NCBI GenBank assembly: GCA_947464185.1
Contig: CANHVY010000010.1
Location: 1 to 64,000, forward strand
Source of the DNA: Burkholderiales bacterium
GTDB lineage: Bacteria > Pseudomonadota > Gammaproteobacteria > Burkholderiales > Burkholderiaceae_C
Direction of reading: 5' to 3'
Length of the DNA: 64,000 bases
Shown: one piece after another, positions 29,794 through 35,614 of the stretch
Layout: each line of letters starts with the position of its first letter
Position numbering within the stretch: the first letter of the stretch is position 1
Translations under genes and position numbers: made by a program
The notes under the pieces: generated by a model
Databases searched by the model: none
The model's input: the letters and a program-made list of their open reading frames with translations, nothing else
What the model was told of the DNA's origin: nothing

Positions 29794-30327
29794 ATGGACA
29801 TTCATCAGATTCAGGTCAAGTACGACCCCTTGGCCGATCGCCTGCTGCTGCAGATTCGCACCCGAGACGATTCGCTGTTCCCGATCTGGCTGACCCGGCG
29901 CATGGTGATGCGCTTGTGGCCGCACTTTCGGGGCATGGTGTCCGGGCTGGCCGTGACGCGATCAGCGCCGTCTGCGATGGCCGTGCCCGAGGCCCGGGAC
30001 ATGCTGGCCGACGCCGCCAGGGAACGCGCCCTCCAGTCCGCCGACTTCAAGACCCAGTTCGACGCGTCCAGCGCCAAGCAGCCCCTGGGGCCCGAGCCCG
30101 TGCTGCCTGCCGCCATCGATTTGCGCCCTGCCAAGGGCCAGGCCGTGGTGCTGGTGATCCGTGACGCCGACGGGCGCAGCCTGGAGTTGGCCTTTGGGGA
30201 GGACCTGGCACACGGCCTGTCAAGGCTGGTGGAAAGCGCATTGGTCGCCTCGGAGTGGGGCCTGGTGCCTGCAGCGGTGGAGCCGCAGGCCGAACCGGGC
30301 ACGCCACCGTCGCGGGTGTTGAACTAG
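29794..30327 (+). CDS. Conserved-looking hypothetical protein divergent from clpB
   Basis: This 177-residue soluble protein of unknown function begins MDIHQIQVKYDPLADRLLLQ. The strand pattern suggests a small alpha/beta protein: an N-terminal beta hairpin (VKYDPLADRLLLQIRT), a basic helix (WLTRRMVMRLWPHF) and a second beta segment near residue 115 (AVVLVIRDADGRSLELAF). There is no signal peptide, cysteine cluster or enzymatic motif. A TAGAAT hexamer ends 6 bp before the ATG and no ribosome-binding site is visible, so the message may be leaderless. It shares a 104-bp divergent region with clpB but has no obvious heat-shock promoter in its own direction. Confidence 0.7.
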   Translation: MDIHQIQVKYDPLADRLLLQIRTRDDSLFPIWLTRRMVMRLWPHFRGMVSGLAVTRSAPSAMAVPEARDMLADAARERALQSADFKTQFDASSAKQPLGPEPVLPAAIDLRPAKGQAVVLVIRDADGRSLELAFGEDLAHGLSRLVESALVASEWGLVPAAVEPQAEPGTPPSRVLN

Positions 30328-30393: not shown

Positions 30394-31911
30394 TCAGCCC
30401 TGGCTGAGTTGCTGCGCGAGCAAGGCCTTTTGCACCTTGCCCAGTGCTGTGCGCGGAAGGTCCTGGCGGATCACGATGCGCCGGGGGTGCTTGTAGCGGG
30501 CCAGCCGCGCAGCGAAAAGAGCTTGCAATCCCTGCAGGTTCACATCCTGCCCAGGGCGCGCCACCAGGGCCAGCGCGGGCACCTCGCCCCACTGAGGGTC
30601 CGGCAAGCCCACCACCGCACACTCGGCCACGCCCGGAAAGGCCTCCACCAGCGACTCGATCTCCGCCGGAAACACTTTCTCGCCCCCGGAATTGATCATG
30701 TCCTTGGAGCGCCCCACCACCTCGTAAGCACCGTCAGGGCGCTGTCGCGCGAGGTCACCTGTGCAGAACCAGCCGTCCACGAAGCCACTGCCCCGGGGCT
30801 CGCCCAGATAGCCTCTCATCACGTTGGGGCCGCGCAGCTGAATCTCGCCCACGGCGCCTGGATCCACGACGGTGCCATCCGGATCGGCCAGCCGCACCTG
30901 CACGCCCGGAGCGGGCCAGCCCGCAAGGCCTGGGTACTGCAGCGCCTGGGCCGGGCGGGTGGCGATGCTGAAGGGCCCGGTCTCGGTGGCGCCGTAGACC
31001 TGCGCCACCGGCACGCCGCGATCATGAAAGCGGTCGATGAGCGCCATCGGCACCACAGAAGAGCCGCTGTTGATGAACCGCAACGACGACAAGTCGGTCT
31101 TTGGCCAGGCCGGATGCTCCAGCAGCGCGCGCATCGTGGCCGGCACCAGCAAAGAGGTGTCCGGGCGCCACGCGGCGACGTCCTTCAGCCAAAGCCCGGG
31201 GTCGAACCGCGCGTGCAGGCACACGGCCCCACCGGCCAGCAGGGCTGGAAGCACCTGGATGCACAGCCCGCCCACGTGGAACATCGGCAGCAGGCTCAGC
31301 ACGCGGGTGTTCGACGTGAAGCCTTGCACCGCTGCGGCGGCCCGTGCATTGGCCAGCACCTGGGCTTGCGTGTGCACCGCGCCCTTGGGCAGCCCCGTGG
31401 TGCCGGAGGTGTAGACCAGCAGCAGGTCAGCCAGCTCGGTGGCGGGATGGCGAACGCTGCCCTGCGCGGCCCCTGCGAGATCCGCCACGCTTGGCCCCGC
31501 CCTGCCCTCGCGGGCCCCGAGCTCCGGTGCGAGCAGGGCCACCCGTTCTGCCATCTCTGGCGTGCCCCTCACCTGCCGCGCGCCTGAATGGCGCAGCAGC
31601 TGGCGCAGTTCCTCGTCGGTCAGGCGCCAGTTCAGCGGCAGGAACACGGCGCCCACGCGTCCACAGGCGAACAGTGTCGCCAACATCTGGGCGCTGTTCA
31701 GGCCCAGCCAGGCCAGCACGTCGCCGGCGGCCACACCCTCGGTGGACAGCGCTGCCACCTGCGCCCGGATCTCCTGCTCGAAGTCGCACCGGCTCCATTC
31801 CTGCGCGCCCCCCGCCACACACAGGGCCAGCGGGTCTGCAGCCAGCAAGCGCTGCCAGACCGCGTCCAGCGAAGTCTCGCCGGGCAACGGGTCGGGCGAG
31901 ACTTCGGTCAC
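30394..31911 (-). CDS. AMP-forming acyl-CoA synthetase
   Basis: This 505-residue ligase of the ANL superfamily activates a carboxylic acid through acyl-adenylate to a CoA thioester. It shows the phosphate loop LLVYTSGTTGLPKGAVH, the YGATETGP motif, the hinge region GWFCTGDL...VVGRSKDMINSGGEKVFP and the C-terminal catalytic lysine in RTALGKVQ. The GTG start overlaps the TGA stop of the upstream acyl-CoA dehydrogenase gene (GTGA), so the two are translationally coupled. It is about the size of the cyclohexanecarboxylate/benzoate-CoA type ligases. The substrate is unknown; the neighbourhood suggests a catabolic role. Confidence 0.88.
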   Translation of the reverse strand: MTEVSPDPLPGETSLDAVWQRLLAADPLALCVAGGAQEWSRCDFEQEIRAQVAALSTEGVAAGDVLAWLGLNSAQMLATLFACGRVGAVFLPLNWRLTDEELRQLLRHSGARQVRGTPEMAERVALLAPELGAREGRAGPSVADLAGAAQGSVRHPATELADLLLVYTSGTTGLPKGAVHTQAQVLANARAAAAVQGFTSNTRVLSLLPMFHVGGLCIQVLPALLAGGAVCLHARFDPGLWLKDVAAWRPDTSLLVPATMRALLEHPAWPKTDLSSLRFINSGSSVVPMALIDRFHDRGVPVAQVYGATETGPFSIATRPAQALQYPGLAGWPAPGVQVRLADPDGTVVDPGAVGEIQLRGPNVMRGYLGEPRGSGFVDGWFCTGDLARQRPDGAYEVVGRSKDMINSGGEKVFPAEIESLVEAFPGVAECAVVGLPDPQWGEVPALALVARPGQDVNLQGLQALFAARLARYKHPRRIVIRQDLPRTALGKVQKALLAQQLSQG

Positions 31912-33155
31912 TCACTCACCTCATCGCGCTCGCCCGGCTCGTACAGGCATTCCCTGCCCAGCCGGTCCACGCACAGCTCGGCCGTCCACGGCAGCATCAG
32001 CGAGCCGCAGCGGGAATCGCGGTAAATGCGCTCCAGCGGCAGGGACTTGAGCATGGACTGGCCGCCGCAGGTGCGGATGGCCAGGCGGGCGATGTCGTTG
32101 GCGCTTTCCATGATGGTGTGGTGGGCGGCATACAAGCGCATGCGGGTGTCGCGGTCGGGGTCGATGCGGGCATCGCGGGCGTTCTGCAGGAACAACGCGC
32201 GGGTCTGCTCGAGCTGGATGCGCATCTGCGCCACCGCCACCTGCTTGGTGGCGTACATGCGGCGCTTGACCGGCGGCATGCCCGGCACTTCGCCGCGCAG
32301 GTACTGCACGGTGAAGTCGTAAGCCGCCTGCGCCAGGCCCATGTAGGTGGGCGACAGCGTGGCGAACATGTGCGGGTAGCGCATGGCCGCCTGGAAGTAC
32401 AGGCCCTCGGGCATCATCCGCGCTTCCTCTGGCACGAAGACGTCCGTGAACTCCAGGTTGCGAGACACCGTGCCGCGCATGCCCAGGGGGTCCCACTCGC
32501 CAAATACACGCACGCCTGGCGCGTCAGCGGGCACGGCAAGGTACAGGGAGTCTCGCTGGGTGGCGCCTGGACGGTCCAGCGTGCACAGCGCACCGTAGTA
32601 GTCGGCCGCGCCCGAGAGCGACGCAAAGATCTTGCGGCCGTTGACGACGTAGCCCCCTTCCACCTTGCGCGCCAGCGTGCCGAACGGCACCTTGCCCGAG
32701 GCGGCCGCACCGCCTTCAGAGAAAGGCTGGGCGTAGACCTTGCCCTGGTTCACCACCCGGTCGAAGTGCAGGGCGCGGATGCGCTCGTGGTCGGCCCGTT
32801 GCTCGGGCGTCATGTCCAGGTCGTCAGCGATGAAACCGGCCCACATGGTGGAGCACACGTGCATGTTCCAGGTCAGGGCGGTGGCCCCGCAGTGGCGGCC
32901 GATCTCGGCGGCCACCATCACATAGGTGCTGAAGTCGGCCCCCAGACCGCCAGCCGCCTTGGGCACGCAGATGCCCAGCAAGCCGGCCGCCCGCAGGTCG
33001 GCATAGTTCTCGAAGGGGAAGACGGCGTCCCGGTCGATGGCCGCCGCCCGGGGGGCGAAGCGCTCCCGGCCCAGTGTGGCTGCCAGATCGATGAGTTCGC
33101 GCTGCTGTGGCGTCAAGCGGTCCGGGGAACCGGCGATGTGGGCGGCTGCGGACAT
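31908..33155 (-). CDS. Acyl-CoA dehydrogenase
   Basis: This 415-residue FAD-dependent acyl-CoA dehydrogenase-fold protein is preceded by GAGGAG, 10 bp upstream. It has the N-terminal helical domain (RERFAPRAAAIDRDAVFPFE), the beta domain with VVNGRKIFASLSGAADYYG, and the C-terminal helix bundle (DFTVQYLRGEV, RTCGGQSMLKSLPLERIYRD). The central TEPxxGSD-type segment is poorly conserved here (SEGGAAASGKVPFG), as in some specialised members. It is coupled by overlap to the acyl-CoA ligase downstream. The gene upstream is an alpha/beta hydrolase, 92 bp away. Confidence 0.85.
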   Translation of the reverse strand: MSAAAHIAGSPDRLTPQQRELIDLAATLGRERFAPRAAAIDRDAVFPFENYADLRAAGLLGICVPKAAGGLGADFSTYVMVAAEIGRHCGATALTWNMHVCSTMWAGFIADDLDMTPEQRADHERIRALHFDRVVNQGKVYAQPFSEGGAAASGKVPFGTLARKVEGGYVVNGRKIFASLSGAADYYGALCTLDRPGATQRDSLYLAVPADAPGVRVFGEWDPLGMRGTVSRNLEFTDVFVPEEARMMPEGLYFQAAMRYPHMFATLSPTYMGLAQAAYDFTVQYLRGEVPGMPPVKRRMYATKQVAVAQMRIQLEQTRALFLQNARDARIDPDRDTRMRLYAAHHTIMESANDIARLAIRTCGGQSMLKSLPLERIYRDSRCGSLMLPWTAELCVDRLGRECLYEPGERDEVSE

Positions 33156-33195
33156 GGGGTGAATCTCCTCGTTGTGTCTTCTTCAGGCTGGATCG

Positions 33196-33215
33196 GGAGG
33201 CCTCAAGCGGCCTCC
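33196..33215. other. Intergenic 7-bp hairpin
   Basis: A perfect stem (GGAGGCC 33196-33202, loop TCAAGC, GGCCTCC 33209-33215) sits in the 92-bp gap between the hydrolase stop and the acyl-CoA dehydrogenase start, both on the minus strand. There is no adjacent T run. It could be an mRNA processing or stabilising element; its function is not demonstrable from sequence. Confidence 0.35.
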
Positions 33216-33247
33216 GAGGTATCCCGCACGATGCGCCTGCCCGTGCT

Positions 33248-34060
33248 CTACGGCATCTGGAAGTGCCGGCCGAGGAATTGCACCACGGCGCGGTTGAAGG
33301 CCTCAGGCTGCTCCACGTTGGCGATGTGGCCGGCATCCGGCAGGCAAACGTACTCGGCGCCCGGAATGTGTGCGGACATGCGCTGCATCACCTCTGGCGG
33401 GGCGGTGCGGTCGTGCGCGGCGGCCAGGCACAGGGTGGGCATGCGCAGCGCGGGCAGCGCCGCGCGGCGGTCGAAGTGAACCAGCGCCCCAAGCGCCGCC
33501 CGGTAAGTGGCCGGCGACACGGCCGACATGATGCGCCGGGCTGCCTCCTGGGCCGCCTCGGGCACCCCAGGCGCCACCATGGCTGGCACCAGGCGCGCGG
33601 CCACCGCCGCCATGCCCTGCCCGGCGTCCAGCGGCGCCAGACGGTCACGCAAGAAGGCCTGCTGCCAGTCGCCCCCTGGGCGGCCGAAGGCGGGCGACGT
33701 GCAGGCCAGGACCAGGGCGCGGGCGCGCTGGGGCCAGGTGGCGGCGAACTCCTGCGCCACCATGCCCCCCATGCTGTGGCCCAGCAACACCGCCTGCTCG
33801 AATCCCAGGGCCTGCAGCGTATCGGCCACCGCCTGCGCCATGGAGGCCATGCTCAAGTCCTCAGGCAAGGCGGAGTCTCCGTAGCCTGGCAGGTCCAGGG
33901 CCAAGGCCGAGAATCCGGCCTGGGCCAGAGCGCGGGCCGTGCCGGAAACCTCATCAGCCCAGATGCGGCGAGACCCCCCCACCCCGTGCAGCAAGGCCAC
34001 GGCCACCGGGCCGTCACCGTGGCGTTCGTGGGCCAGCATGCGATCGGCCGCGCCCGTCAC
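33248..34060 (-). CDS. Alpha/beta hydrolase, NicD-like context
   Basis: This 270-residue alpha/beta-fold hydrolase has the nucleophile elbow LLGHSMGGM (GxSxG), a catalytic His in LPDAGHIANVEQP, and the oxyanion segment LLHGVGGS. I chose the GTG at 34060 because it overlaps the upstream stop as GTGA; the ATG at 34039 is an alternative. The gene directly follows a NicX-like dioxygenase. In nicotinate degradation the enzyme after NicX is NicD, an alpha/beta hydrolase that deformylates N-formylmaleamate. That role is possible here, but the nicE/nicF partners are absent, so other esters or enol-lactones remain possible. Confidence 0.8.
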   Translation of the reverse strand: MTGAADRMLAHERHGDGPVAVALLHGVGGSRRIWADEVSGTARALAQAGFSALALDLPGYGDSALPEDLSMASMAQAVADTLQALGFEQAVLLGHSMGGMVAQEFAATWPQRARALVLACTSPAFGRPGGDWQQAFLRDRLAPLDAGQGMAAVAARLVPAMVAPGVPEAAQEAARRIMSAVSPATYRAALGALVHFDRRAALPALRMPTLCLAAAHDRTAPPEVMQRMSAHIPGAEYVCLPDAGHIANVEQPEAFNRAVVQFLGRHFQMP

Positions 34061-35088
34061 AGCAACCGACCCTGGTCCACCACCGGCTCGCCATCCAGCG
34101 CCACGGTGCACCCGCGCAGCGGCAGGTCGAAGTGGCCTGCGGTATGTCGCCCTGCCACCTCGTTGGCGCCCGTGGAGTACAGGAAGTTGCCGGCGAAGGC
34201 ACGGAGCTCGGTGCCGTTGAAGTCGGCCTTGTCGTAGAAGGTCATCGCATCCCAGCGGGCGCGGCGGTTCAAGCCCCAGCCCACATGGGACACGGCGTAG
34301 GCCTGCGGGTCGTTCCAGGCTTCGAAATAACCGCGCATCAGGTCGCCATCCACGTGTCGCCCCTCCACCTGCACGACGCGGTCGTCTTCGATGTGCAGGG
34401 TGACCGGGTCTTGCAGGTAACGCTTGAAGGTGAGGTTGACATCGCCCCGGTCAAGCACCAGATGCCCCCGCACCTGGTGCGCTGCGGGAAAGGCCAGGAC
34501 CAGACCCGCCGGCCAGTGCGACAGCGTGCCAAGCTTGGCGGTGAAGCCCCAGACCCCGCCCACGCGGGCGCCCGCCAGGCCGATCAGCAACTCGGTGCCA
34601 GCGGCCGAGGTCACCTTCATTTCGCGCGCTGACTTCAAACGCCGCATGGCCTCCCGTACCGGTGCCTCGTCTTCCGCCCGGGGTTCACAGCGCAGCAGGA
34701 TCTCCGGGTGCTCGTGACTGATGGCCAGGACCCGCGCACCGCCCTTGAGGATGGCGGGCAACTCAGCGGCATGCTGCAGGCCCTCCACCGTGCAGTCGGC
34801 GACGAAGACGCTGCCAGCCAGGGCCGACACCACGGGCGACAGGCCGCCAATCGCCTCGGAAGCGCCTGTGGAGCGAACAGGTACGGGGGCGCTCAAGGGC
34901 CGAGCCGGCATCACCAGATGAAAAGGCCGGGCGCCGATGCGGGCGAGGGCCATTTCACTGATCAAGGGCAGTTCCGGTCGGGTCTGGGTCTCGGCCAGCA
35001 CGGCGCAGGCATCGCCAGCCTGCACGCCGCACAGCCGGAACACACGTTCGAAGCAGTCCACCCAGGTCGATTCGATTCGGCACGTCAT
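34057..35088 (-). CDS. NicX-like 2,5-dihydroxypyridine 5,6-dioxygenase family protein
   Basis: This 343-residue protein starts from the ATG at 35088, with GGAG 9 bp upstream. Its C-terminal half matches, as I recall it, Pseudomonas putida NicX, an iron dioxygenase that opens the 2,5-dihydroxypyridine ring. Matching segments are HLVLDRGDVNLTFKRY, AYAVSHVGWGLNRRARWDAM, LRAFAGNFLYSTG and GHFDLPLRGC. The NicX iron ligands (two His, one Asp) correspond to His268, His319 and Asp321 here. The fold is related to M29 aminopeptidases, an older annotation for this family. It sits 16 bp after moaE and overlaps the hydrolase. Substrate unproven. Confidence 0.78.
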   Translation of the reverse strand: MTCRIESTWVDCFERVFRLCGVQAGDACAVLAETQTRPELPLISEMALARIGARPFHLVMPARPLSAPVPVRSTGASEAIGGLSPVVSALAGSVFVADCTVEGLQHAAELPAILKGGARVLAISHEHPEILLRCEPRAEDEAPVREAMRRLKSAREMKVTSAAGTELLIGLAGARVGGVWGFTAKLGTLSHWPAGLVLAFPAAHQVRGHLVLDRGDVNLTFKRYLQDPVTLHIEDDRVVQVEGRHVDGDLMRGYFEAWNDPQAYAVSHVGWGLNRRARWDAMTFYDKADFNGTELRAFAGNFLYSTGANEVAGRHTAGHFDLPLRGCTVALDGEPVVDQGRLL

Positions 35089-35104
35089 GGGCGTGACTCC
35101 GGTG

Positions 35105-35614
35105 TCAGGTACTGGGGGATGAAGGGGCTGGGCTGATGTCCGAGGCATTGGCTGCCTGGATGCCCCAGCGCTGCAGCGCCTGGTCGTCGCTGACGCGCGC
35201 ATCCACCCAGCGTGCGCCCTCGGCGGTGGTTTCCTTCTTCCAGAACGGCGCCTGCGTCTTCAGATAGTCCATCAGGAATTCACAGGCCTGGAAAGCCTCG
35301 CCGCGGTGGGCGGAGGTGACGGCCACCAGGACGATCTGGTCCAGGGGTTGCAGCACGCCCACGCGGTGCACGACACGCGCACCACGGATGTCGAAGCGCT
35401 GGAACGCCTGGTCGATCATGGCCTCGATGGAGGCCTCTGTCATGCCCGGATAGTGCTCGAGCTCGAGGCTGGAGATGCCCTGCAGGGCGCCATGGCGATC
35501 CCGCACGGTGCCCAGGAAGGACACCACCGCCCCCACGCCACCATCTCCGGCACGCAGTTGGCTCACCTCGGCAGCCAGATCGAAATCCTGCTCACAGATC
35601 AGCACGCGCGCCAT
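35105..35614 (-). CDS. moaE: Molybdopterin synthase catalytic subunit
   Basis: MoaE, with thiocarboxylated MoaD, puts two sulfurs into cyclic pyranopterin phosphate to make molybdopterin. The protein is 169 residues. It shows the conserved GAVVSFLGTVRD opening, LELEHYPGM, the IHRVG-type segment VVHRVGVLQP, VTSAHRGEAF and the active-site lysines in APFWKKE. A 20-residue tail after the core (AANASDISPAPSSPST) is extra. It lies 4 bp after moaD, and the NicX-like gene follows 16 bp later on the same strand. Confidence 0.95.
   Translation of the reverse strand: MARVLICEQDFDLAAEVSQLRAGDGGVGAVVSFLGTVRDRHGALQGISSLELEHYPGMTEASIEAMIDQAFQRFDIRGARVVHRVGVLQPLDQIVLVAVTSAHRGEAFQACEFLMDYLKTQAPFWKKETTAEGARWVDARVSDDQALQRWGIQAANASDISPAPSSPST

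Follow-up and report, generated by a model that had tools for sequence, protein, structure and literature searches.

The steroid-ring genes hsaABCD bring together an acyl-coenzyme A (CoA) dehydrogenase (ACAD)-fold hydroxylase with its reductase, a ring-cleaving dioxygenase and an alpha/beta hydrolase, and the dioxygenase of this set, HsaC, is a classical extradiol enzyme. In the nic/pic clusters for pyridine acids, a NicX-type enzyme also stands beside an alpha/beta hydrolase. According to PMC7910607, 2,5-dihydroxypyridine is the only substrate reported for NicX, and Glu177 of this enzyme bonds N1 and O1 of the pyridine, the E177A variant having 2.7% of the activity left. In addition, PMC12442392 describes the ipp cluster of Rhodococcus sp. 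D-6 for 2-isopropylphenol degradation, in which a group D oxygenase and a reductase yield a hydroquinone that is then ring-cleaved. Here we analysed a four-gene module of a Burkholderiales bacterium (Burkholderiaceae_C; assembly GCA_947464185.1), located at positions 30394-35088 of the window, by which we mean the whole analysed stretch of 64,000 nucleotides of contig CANHVY010000010.1. The module encodes a NicX-like protein, an alpha/beta hydrolase, an ACAD-like flavoprotein and an acyl-CoA ligase, and we put at roughly 50% the probability that it represents a catabolic route for an aromatic, possibly heteroaromatic, compound, whose ring would be hydroxylated and cleaved and the product hydrolysed, with the ligase as an exchangeable component.

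All four open reading frames (ORFs) are open, lie on the minus strand and together span exactly 30394-35088. The genes of the NicX-like protein and the hydrolase overlap by 4 bp, as do those of the ACAD-like protein and the ligase, while the hydrolase and ACAD-like genes are separated by 92 bp; the coordinates thus agree with the original prediction, made from the sequence alone, of four genes on one strand with 4-bp overlaps at two junctions. The NicX-like protein (34057-35088; 343 aa) had NicX as its sole match among solved proteins (PDB 7cn3, E-value 2e-52, residues 11-340) at a limit of E 0.1. No Pfam or NCBIfam model matched it at E 0.001, and at E 1 Pfam gave one sub-threshold match to a domain of unknown function and no M29 match. 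An identity as an M29 aminopeptidase (PF02073) was ruled out because no match to this family appeared at E 0.001 or E 1; a PF02073 search of the genome also gave no match, while 4 of 14 control genomes gave matches.

Related loci, denoted here by L-numbers with L001 as the closest relative of the window locus, were collected by similarity to the NicX-like protein, and 80 of the 102 found were kept. In a tree of 109 rows, 100 rows including the window protein were separated from 9 rows including NicX with a split support of 100/99, although the program warned that long branches meet here and the position of the root is not established. The protein is a NicX relative, as had been proposed, of a clade separate from the characterised NicX. 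In a sample of 398 Pseudomonadota genomes, the window's own included, the identities of NicX-like matches were either at least 50% or at most 41%.

The 80 loci, together with L097, L101 and L102, gave 83 rows aligned to NicX. The iron ligands His265, Ser302, His318 and Asp320 of NicX correspond to His268, Ser305, His319 and Asp321 of the window protein, and the supporting Arg293 corresponds to Arg296. All four ligands, Arg293 and His105 are retained in 83 of 83 relatives, and His189 is retained in the window protein and in 81 relatives (Ser in L067, Thr in L071). The conservation of His268, His319 and Asp321 that had been claimed for this protein was thereby recovered, with Ser305 in addition. 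In contrast, Glu177 of NicX is replaced by Val179 in the window protein and is absent from all 83 relatives (V 50, S 20, G 8, N 2, T 2, I 1), and Glu308 is kept in none of them. Among the six rows shown from outside the clade, four have Glu177 and two have Gln at this position; Phe occupies position 105 in four of the six, which indicates that His105 is not diagnostic of NicX as such.

These residues bear on the explanation that the protein is a plain NicX among unusual neighbour genes, with 2,5-dihydroxypyridine or a closely similar pyridine-diol as its substrate. The retention of all four iron ligands, His105 and His189 in the window protein would suit this explanation, but the pyridine-binding Glu is never present in the 83 rows, the protein belongs to a separate clade, and the four genes include neither an isochorismatase-type amidase nor a maleate isomerase, so that we consider it very improbable. 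More generally, the replacement of Glu177 in every relative weakens the suggestion of a pyridine-type diol as the substrate.

The gene company is also different from that of NicX. L104 and L105 are annotated plasmid clusters that contain genes of the isochorismatase family. There, unlike in the module, the hydrolase gene comes ahead of NicX, and the hydrolases are only 25-26% identical to that of the window. The NicX-NicD order of nicotinate degradation, which had been read into the module, did not hold up in this comparison, and the identification of the hydrolase as NicD was rejected. With Pfam and NCBIfam, neither maleamate amidase nor maleate isomerase was found among the four genes, in line with their claimed absence, the amidase not having been searched genome-wide. 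For the isomerase, a genome search with PF17645 gave 0 matches but also 0 in control genomes, so its genome-wide absence is not established.

The linkage of the four genes was evaluated in the 80 loci, using identities of at least 30% for the hydrolase and at least 40% for both the ACAD-like protein and the ligase as cut-offs for presence. The hydrolase was present in 62 loci, the ACAD-like protein in 61 and the ligase in 44; the NicX-like, hydrolase and ACAD-like genes occurred together in 58, and all four genes, in the same order and on the same strand, in 41. A conserved module with an intact NicX-type iron site is thus supported. With the genes linked elsewhere and no peptidase signal in the NicX-like protein, neither of the two findings named beforehand as fatal to the pathway idea was made. 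Among the 19 loci without the ACAD-like gene, six are on contigs that end within 650 bases downstream of the NicX-like gene and one is short on both sides, while 12 have 8.9-10 kb downstream and still lack it.

A test that is independent of linkage was performed on the 398 genomes, with thresholds of at least 50% identity for a NicX-clade match and E 1e-90 or better for an ACAD-like match; the best five NicX and best four ACAD-like candidates were scored per genome, so that single absences are not certain. The NicX clade was present in 19 genomes and the ACAD-like orthologue in 18, all of which were among those 19, G102 being the only NicX-clade genome of the sample without the orthologue. The hypergeometric probability of this co-occurrence was 2.9e-30 by genome and 1.5e-17 by genus (11 of 11 within 12 of 213), and both values are too small because the genomes are related and do not represent independent samples. 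The grouping of the genes nevertheless goes far beyond chance. In addition, the pairwise distances of the NicX-like and ACAD-like proteins were correlated over 75 loci (r 0.91), which is partly a consequence of shared ancestry. Physical separation was also observed: genome G346 has the NicX-like gene on one contig and hydrolase-ACAD-ligase on another, and in four of the four Acidimicrobiia tested that have a NicX locus without the ACAD-like gene (L052, L054, L055, L065), the hydrolase, the ACAD-like gene and a glutamine-synthetase-like gene lie together on another contig. Even among close relatives of the window the distribution is patchy: of the 37 genomes of its genus, 16 gave a NicX-clade match that covers most of the protein, and another gave a fragment. 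Named strains with the module include Azohydromonas sediminis SYSU G00088 (L032) and Rubrivivax albus ICH-3 (L035).

The ACAD-like protein (31908-33155; 415 aa) is the component whose role decides how the module is read. It possesses the fold and the domains of an ACAD, as revealed by Foldseek and Pfam. However, the two positions at which an ungapped reading places the catalytic Glu are occupied by other residues. The column of the short-chain ACADs is Leu in 75 of 75 relatives, inside the motif R-D-x-R-C-G-x-x-M-L-P, and at the isovaleryl-type position 66 relatives have Met and 8 have Phe, with a gap in the remaining one, suggesting that the protein is probably not a dehydrogenase. Moreover, a flavin reductase gene adjoins the NicX-like gene in 45 of the 80 loci, in 43 of them on the same strand just upstream and in two divergently (tblastn matches at E 1e-10, of which those in L003 and L012, both Rubrivivax-type relatives, were verified to contain PF01613). 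This neighbour, which is evidence of a genomic kind, is the strongest pointer to a monooxygenase role. Because the catalytic Glu is absent and a flavin reductase gene stands beside NicX in many relatives, we predict that the protein more likely serves as the oxygenase component in a two-component flavin monooxygenase. In keeping with this prediction, the family profile scored 183 bits against 5z8t/5gj7, the next matches, true ACADs, reaching at most 131 bits, and 5z8t, titled a flavin-containing monooxygenase in the PDB, was the first Foldseek match by E-value. An invariant N-M-H holds His99, which aligned with a His of 5z8t. Genes with PF01613 were also found in the Ensifer operon (one) and in the Aminobacter operon (two), and one of the latter (L102:17689-18864) combines the flavin reductase domain and a LysR substrate-binding domain in a single fusion protein.

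A number of observations weigh against a monooxygenase coupled to the NicX-like enzyme. The structure 5gj7, which seems to show the same protein as 5z8t, bears the title of a putative acyl-CoA dehydrogenase. By template-modelling score, several true ACADs are a better fit to the structure model (TM-score, up to 0.81 vs. 0.75 for 5z8t), the model being of moderate quality (predicted local distance difference test, pLDDT, 83.6). The top NCBIfam model is an ACAD, FadE16 (E 1e-41), with HsaA at E 1e-15, and other monooxygenases scored below the true ACADs (KijD3 115 bits, DszC 57 bits), so that the fold evidence on monooxygenase versus dehydrogenase is mixed. No His is present in any of the 75 rows in the 12 C-terminal columns RDSRCGSLMLPW, where a flavin-covering His would presumably fall. 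XiaF-type enzymes place a conserved C-terminal His (His371 of XiaF) over the flavin, according to PMC5481743. The reductase gene is found neither at the window locus nor in L001, and in 21 of the 61 ACAD-bearing loci it is missing from the stretch examined by tblastn at E 1e-10. Finally, the genomes of G102, L067 and L071 keep the NicX-like and hydrolase genes with no ACAD-like match at E 1e-40.

The original prediction had offered a different sequence of events, in which ring cleavage comes first, the ligase then converts the product into a CoA thioester, and the ACAD-like protein finally dehydrogenates this thioester. Such a route would be in keeping with the fold, the Pfam domains, the best NCBIfam model and the TM-scores, with the adjacency of the ligase gene to the ACAD-like gene, and with the occurrence in L138, close to the module, of genes for a 3-hydroxyacyl-CoA dehydrogenase and an enoyl-CoA hydratase. 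However, it has to contend with the Leu and Met/Phe residues at the Glu positions, with the reductase genes beside NicX, and with the Ensifer, Aminobacter and Acidimicrobiia loci, where no ligase of at least 40% identity lies beside the core though the ACAD-like, NicX-like and hydrolase genes persist. Dehydrogenation of a CoA thioester by this protein is thus less supported than had been supposed, and we regard this route as unlikely.

In the window lineage, the reductase gene is no longer at the locus. A 16-bp gap (35089-35104) lies upstream of the NicX-like gene, on the side where many relatives carry the reductase gene. The loss looks derived because L026, L003 and L002, which come next to the window and L001 in the tree, do carry the reductase, although the forks that join them have supports of only 100/48 and 99/75. 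The window genome has four places with PF01613, none at the module, and the flavin reductase on its contig C26, which is 57% identical to a module reductase and adjoins a luciferase-like monooxygenase, was considered a candidate for the relocated partner. The C26 cluster (L154:2243-14318) includes genes for a molybdenum-cofactor-binding protein, the luciferase-like monooxygenase, the flavin reductase and a flavin adenine dinucleotide-binding protein, and is possibly another heteroaromatic route. An orphan orthologue of the ACAD-like protein, 57% identical (L166:14989-16236), was observed on a plasmid typed as conjugative in a metagenome-assembled genome of Dolichospermum, with no NicX, hydrolase or ligase annotated near it.

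The hydrolase (33248-34060; 270 aa, GTG start) is assigned by Pfam, alignments and a structure model to the esterase / enol-lactonase type of alpha/beta hydrolases. Its Ser96, Asp217 and His245 are invariant in alignments of 39 and 36 rows and would form the catalytic triad. The model (pLDDT 96) had a Thermogutta esterase as its top folds, and the enol-lactonase 2xua ranked tenth; a BphD-type C-C hydrolase was rejected, being absent among the best 50 of 1,950 fold matches. In Ensifer, the hydrolase is fused to a polyketide-cyclase-like domain (L101:14375-15664).

The ligase (30394-31911; 505 aa, GTG start) is an adenosine monophosphate (AMP)-dependent acyl-CoA ligase with PF00501, and its nearest solved structures are 8wev, annotated as a feruloyl-CoA synthetase, and 8weu, annotated as a fatty-acyl-CoA synthase (E 1.5e-93 and 1.7e-93). 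It stands outside the constant core of the module and is exchangeable. The Ensifer and Aminobacter operons show no ligase and have a glutamine-synthetase-like gene, which is also found in L072 and in the hydrolase-ACAD clusters of the four Acidimicrobiia genomes; two kinds of this protein exist (L101 vs. L072), only about 27% identical to each other. In L072, L074-L076 and L078, AMP-ligases were observed within 10 kb, but these are distant, at 28-31% identity.

This exchange bears on another explanation, in which CoA enters first: the ligase would make an aromatic acyl-CoA, the flavoprotein would oxygenate the ring of the thioester, the NicX-like enzyme would cleave it, and the hydrolase would act as a thioesterase or lactonase. 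The proximity of the ligase to 8wev points in this direction, with 8weu at a nearly equal score, as do genes for acid-type transporters in the vicinity of the module (TRAP in L137, TctC in L136, branched-chain-type ABC in L056) and the MarR-type gene near NicX in 15 of the 80 loci, one of them weak. Against this, core genes are accompanied by a glutamine-synthetase-like gene in four Acidimicrobiia genomes as well as in the operons of Ensifer and Aminobacter. Since this gene replaces the ligase there, CoA may be dispensable for the core chemistry, and we think it improbable that the thioester is formed first.

Under the preferred reading of hydroxylation, cleavage and hydrolysis, the ACAD-fold protein, with reduced flavin from a PF01613 reductase, would hydroxylate a phenol- or pyridone-like ring. 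By analogy with NicX, the Fe(II) enzyme would then open this ring beside a hydroxyl that is para to another hydroxyl, and the alpha/beta hydrolase would split an ester, lactone or amide bond of the product. The ligase would form the CoA thioester of either the starting acid or the product acid, and in the window lineage another reductase of the genome would have to supply the ACAD-like protein. It is inferred that the flavoprotein reacts as a monooxygenase and that a para-diol arises as an intermediate, and so are the order of the steps and the point of CoA entry. A more specific proposal, which we advance tentatively and hold to be possible rather than probable, is an undescribed route of aromatic degradation in which a NicX-fold iron enzyme has shifted from pyridines to another para-diol ring, which may even be purely carbocyclic, and has one ACAD-fold flavin oxygenase as its almost constant partner. 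The entry enzymes of this route would be interchangeable: Burkholderiales and some other Pseudomonadota would use a CoA ligase, and Acidimicrobiia and the operons of the Ensifer and Aminobacter types a glutamine-synthetase-like ligase.

The layout of hsaABCD resembles the module, although the HsaA model matched the ACAD-like protein weakly and HsaC is of the classical extradiol type. A likeness in logic is also seen in the ipp cluster, which, according to PMC12442392, additionally has fumarylacetoacetate-hydrolase-type and CoA-synthetase-type genes; its ring-cleaving enzyme is related to BphC2 and not to NicX, and the oxygenases are likened here by description. The neighbour genes across lineages disagree on a single substrate. 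Additional genes of the Aminobacter operon and its relatives encode an APC permease, a cupin that resembles gentisate dioxygenase, a member of the fumarylacetoacetate-hydrolase family, and proteins similar to glutamine synthetase and nitrilase, the nitrilase-like gene not being found in the relative L145. In the Acidimicrobiia locus L054 (L054:7810-12329), the NicX-like gene lies between arginase-family and aminotransferase genes, with the hydrolase and ACAD-like genes on another contig. L067, L071 and L140 form a subclade of the tree in which the NicX-like gene is paired with the hydrolase, with no ACAD orthologue at E 1e-40, and L067 also holds GMC oxidoreductase and TonB receptor genes.

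Taken as a whole, the original interpretation is partly supported. The module is widespread in bacteria and apparently unnamed: no description of it was found among the titles and abstract openings surveyed in the open-licence PMC literature, and no mention of the PDB codes 5z8t or 5gj7 was met in the papers searched. NicX homologues in human microbiota are mentioned in PMC11288164. Each of the proteins comes from a known superfamily, while the clade and the pairing are new and the substrate is probably new. A large sister clade with an intact iron site and without the pyridine-binding Glu provides a ready set for studying the substrate choice of the NicX fold. In addition, a protein annotated as an acyl-CoA dehydrogenase may be an oxygenase, which, if true, would change the pathway predictions for the genomes that carry it, and the near-perfect co-occurrence makes the function testable with few purified proteins.

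Downstream of the module, between it and an ORF read by eye as ClpB, lies a 177-aa ORF on the plus strand (29794-30327), which gave no Pfam match at E 1e-5. On the upstream side, a gene at 35105-35614 on the minus strand, identified by eye with no family search as a putative molybdopterin synthase MoaE, flanks the module and is not thought to be part of it. The ORF cluster c5, which includes the ORF upstream of NicX in L001, was present in 31 of the 81 clustered sequences.

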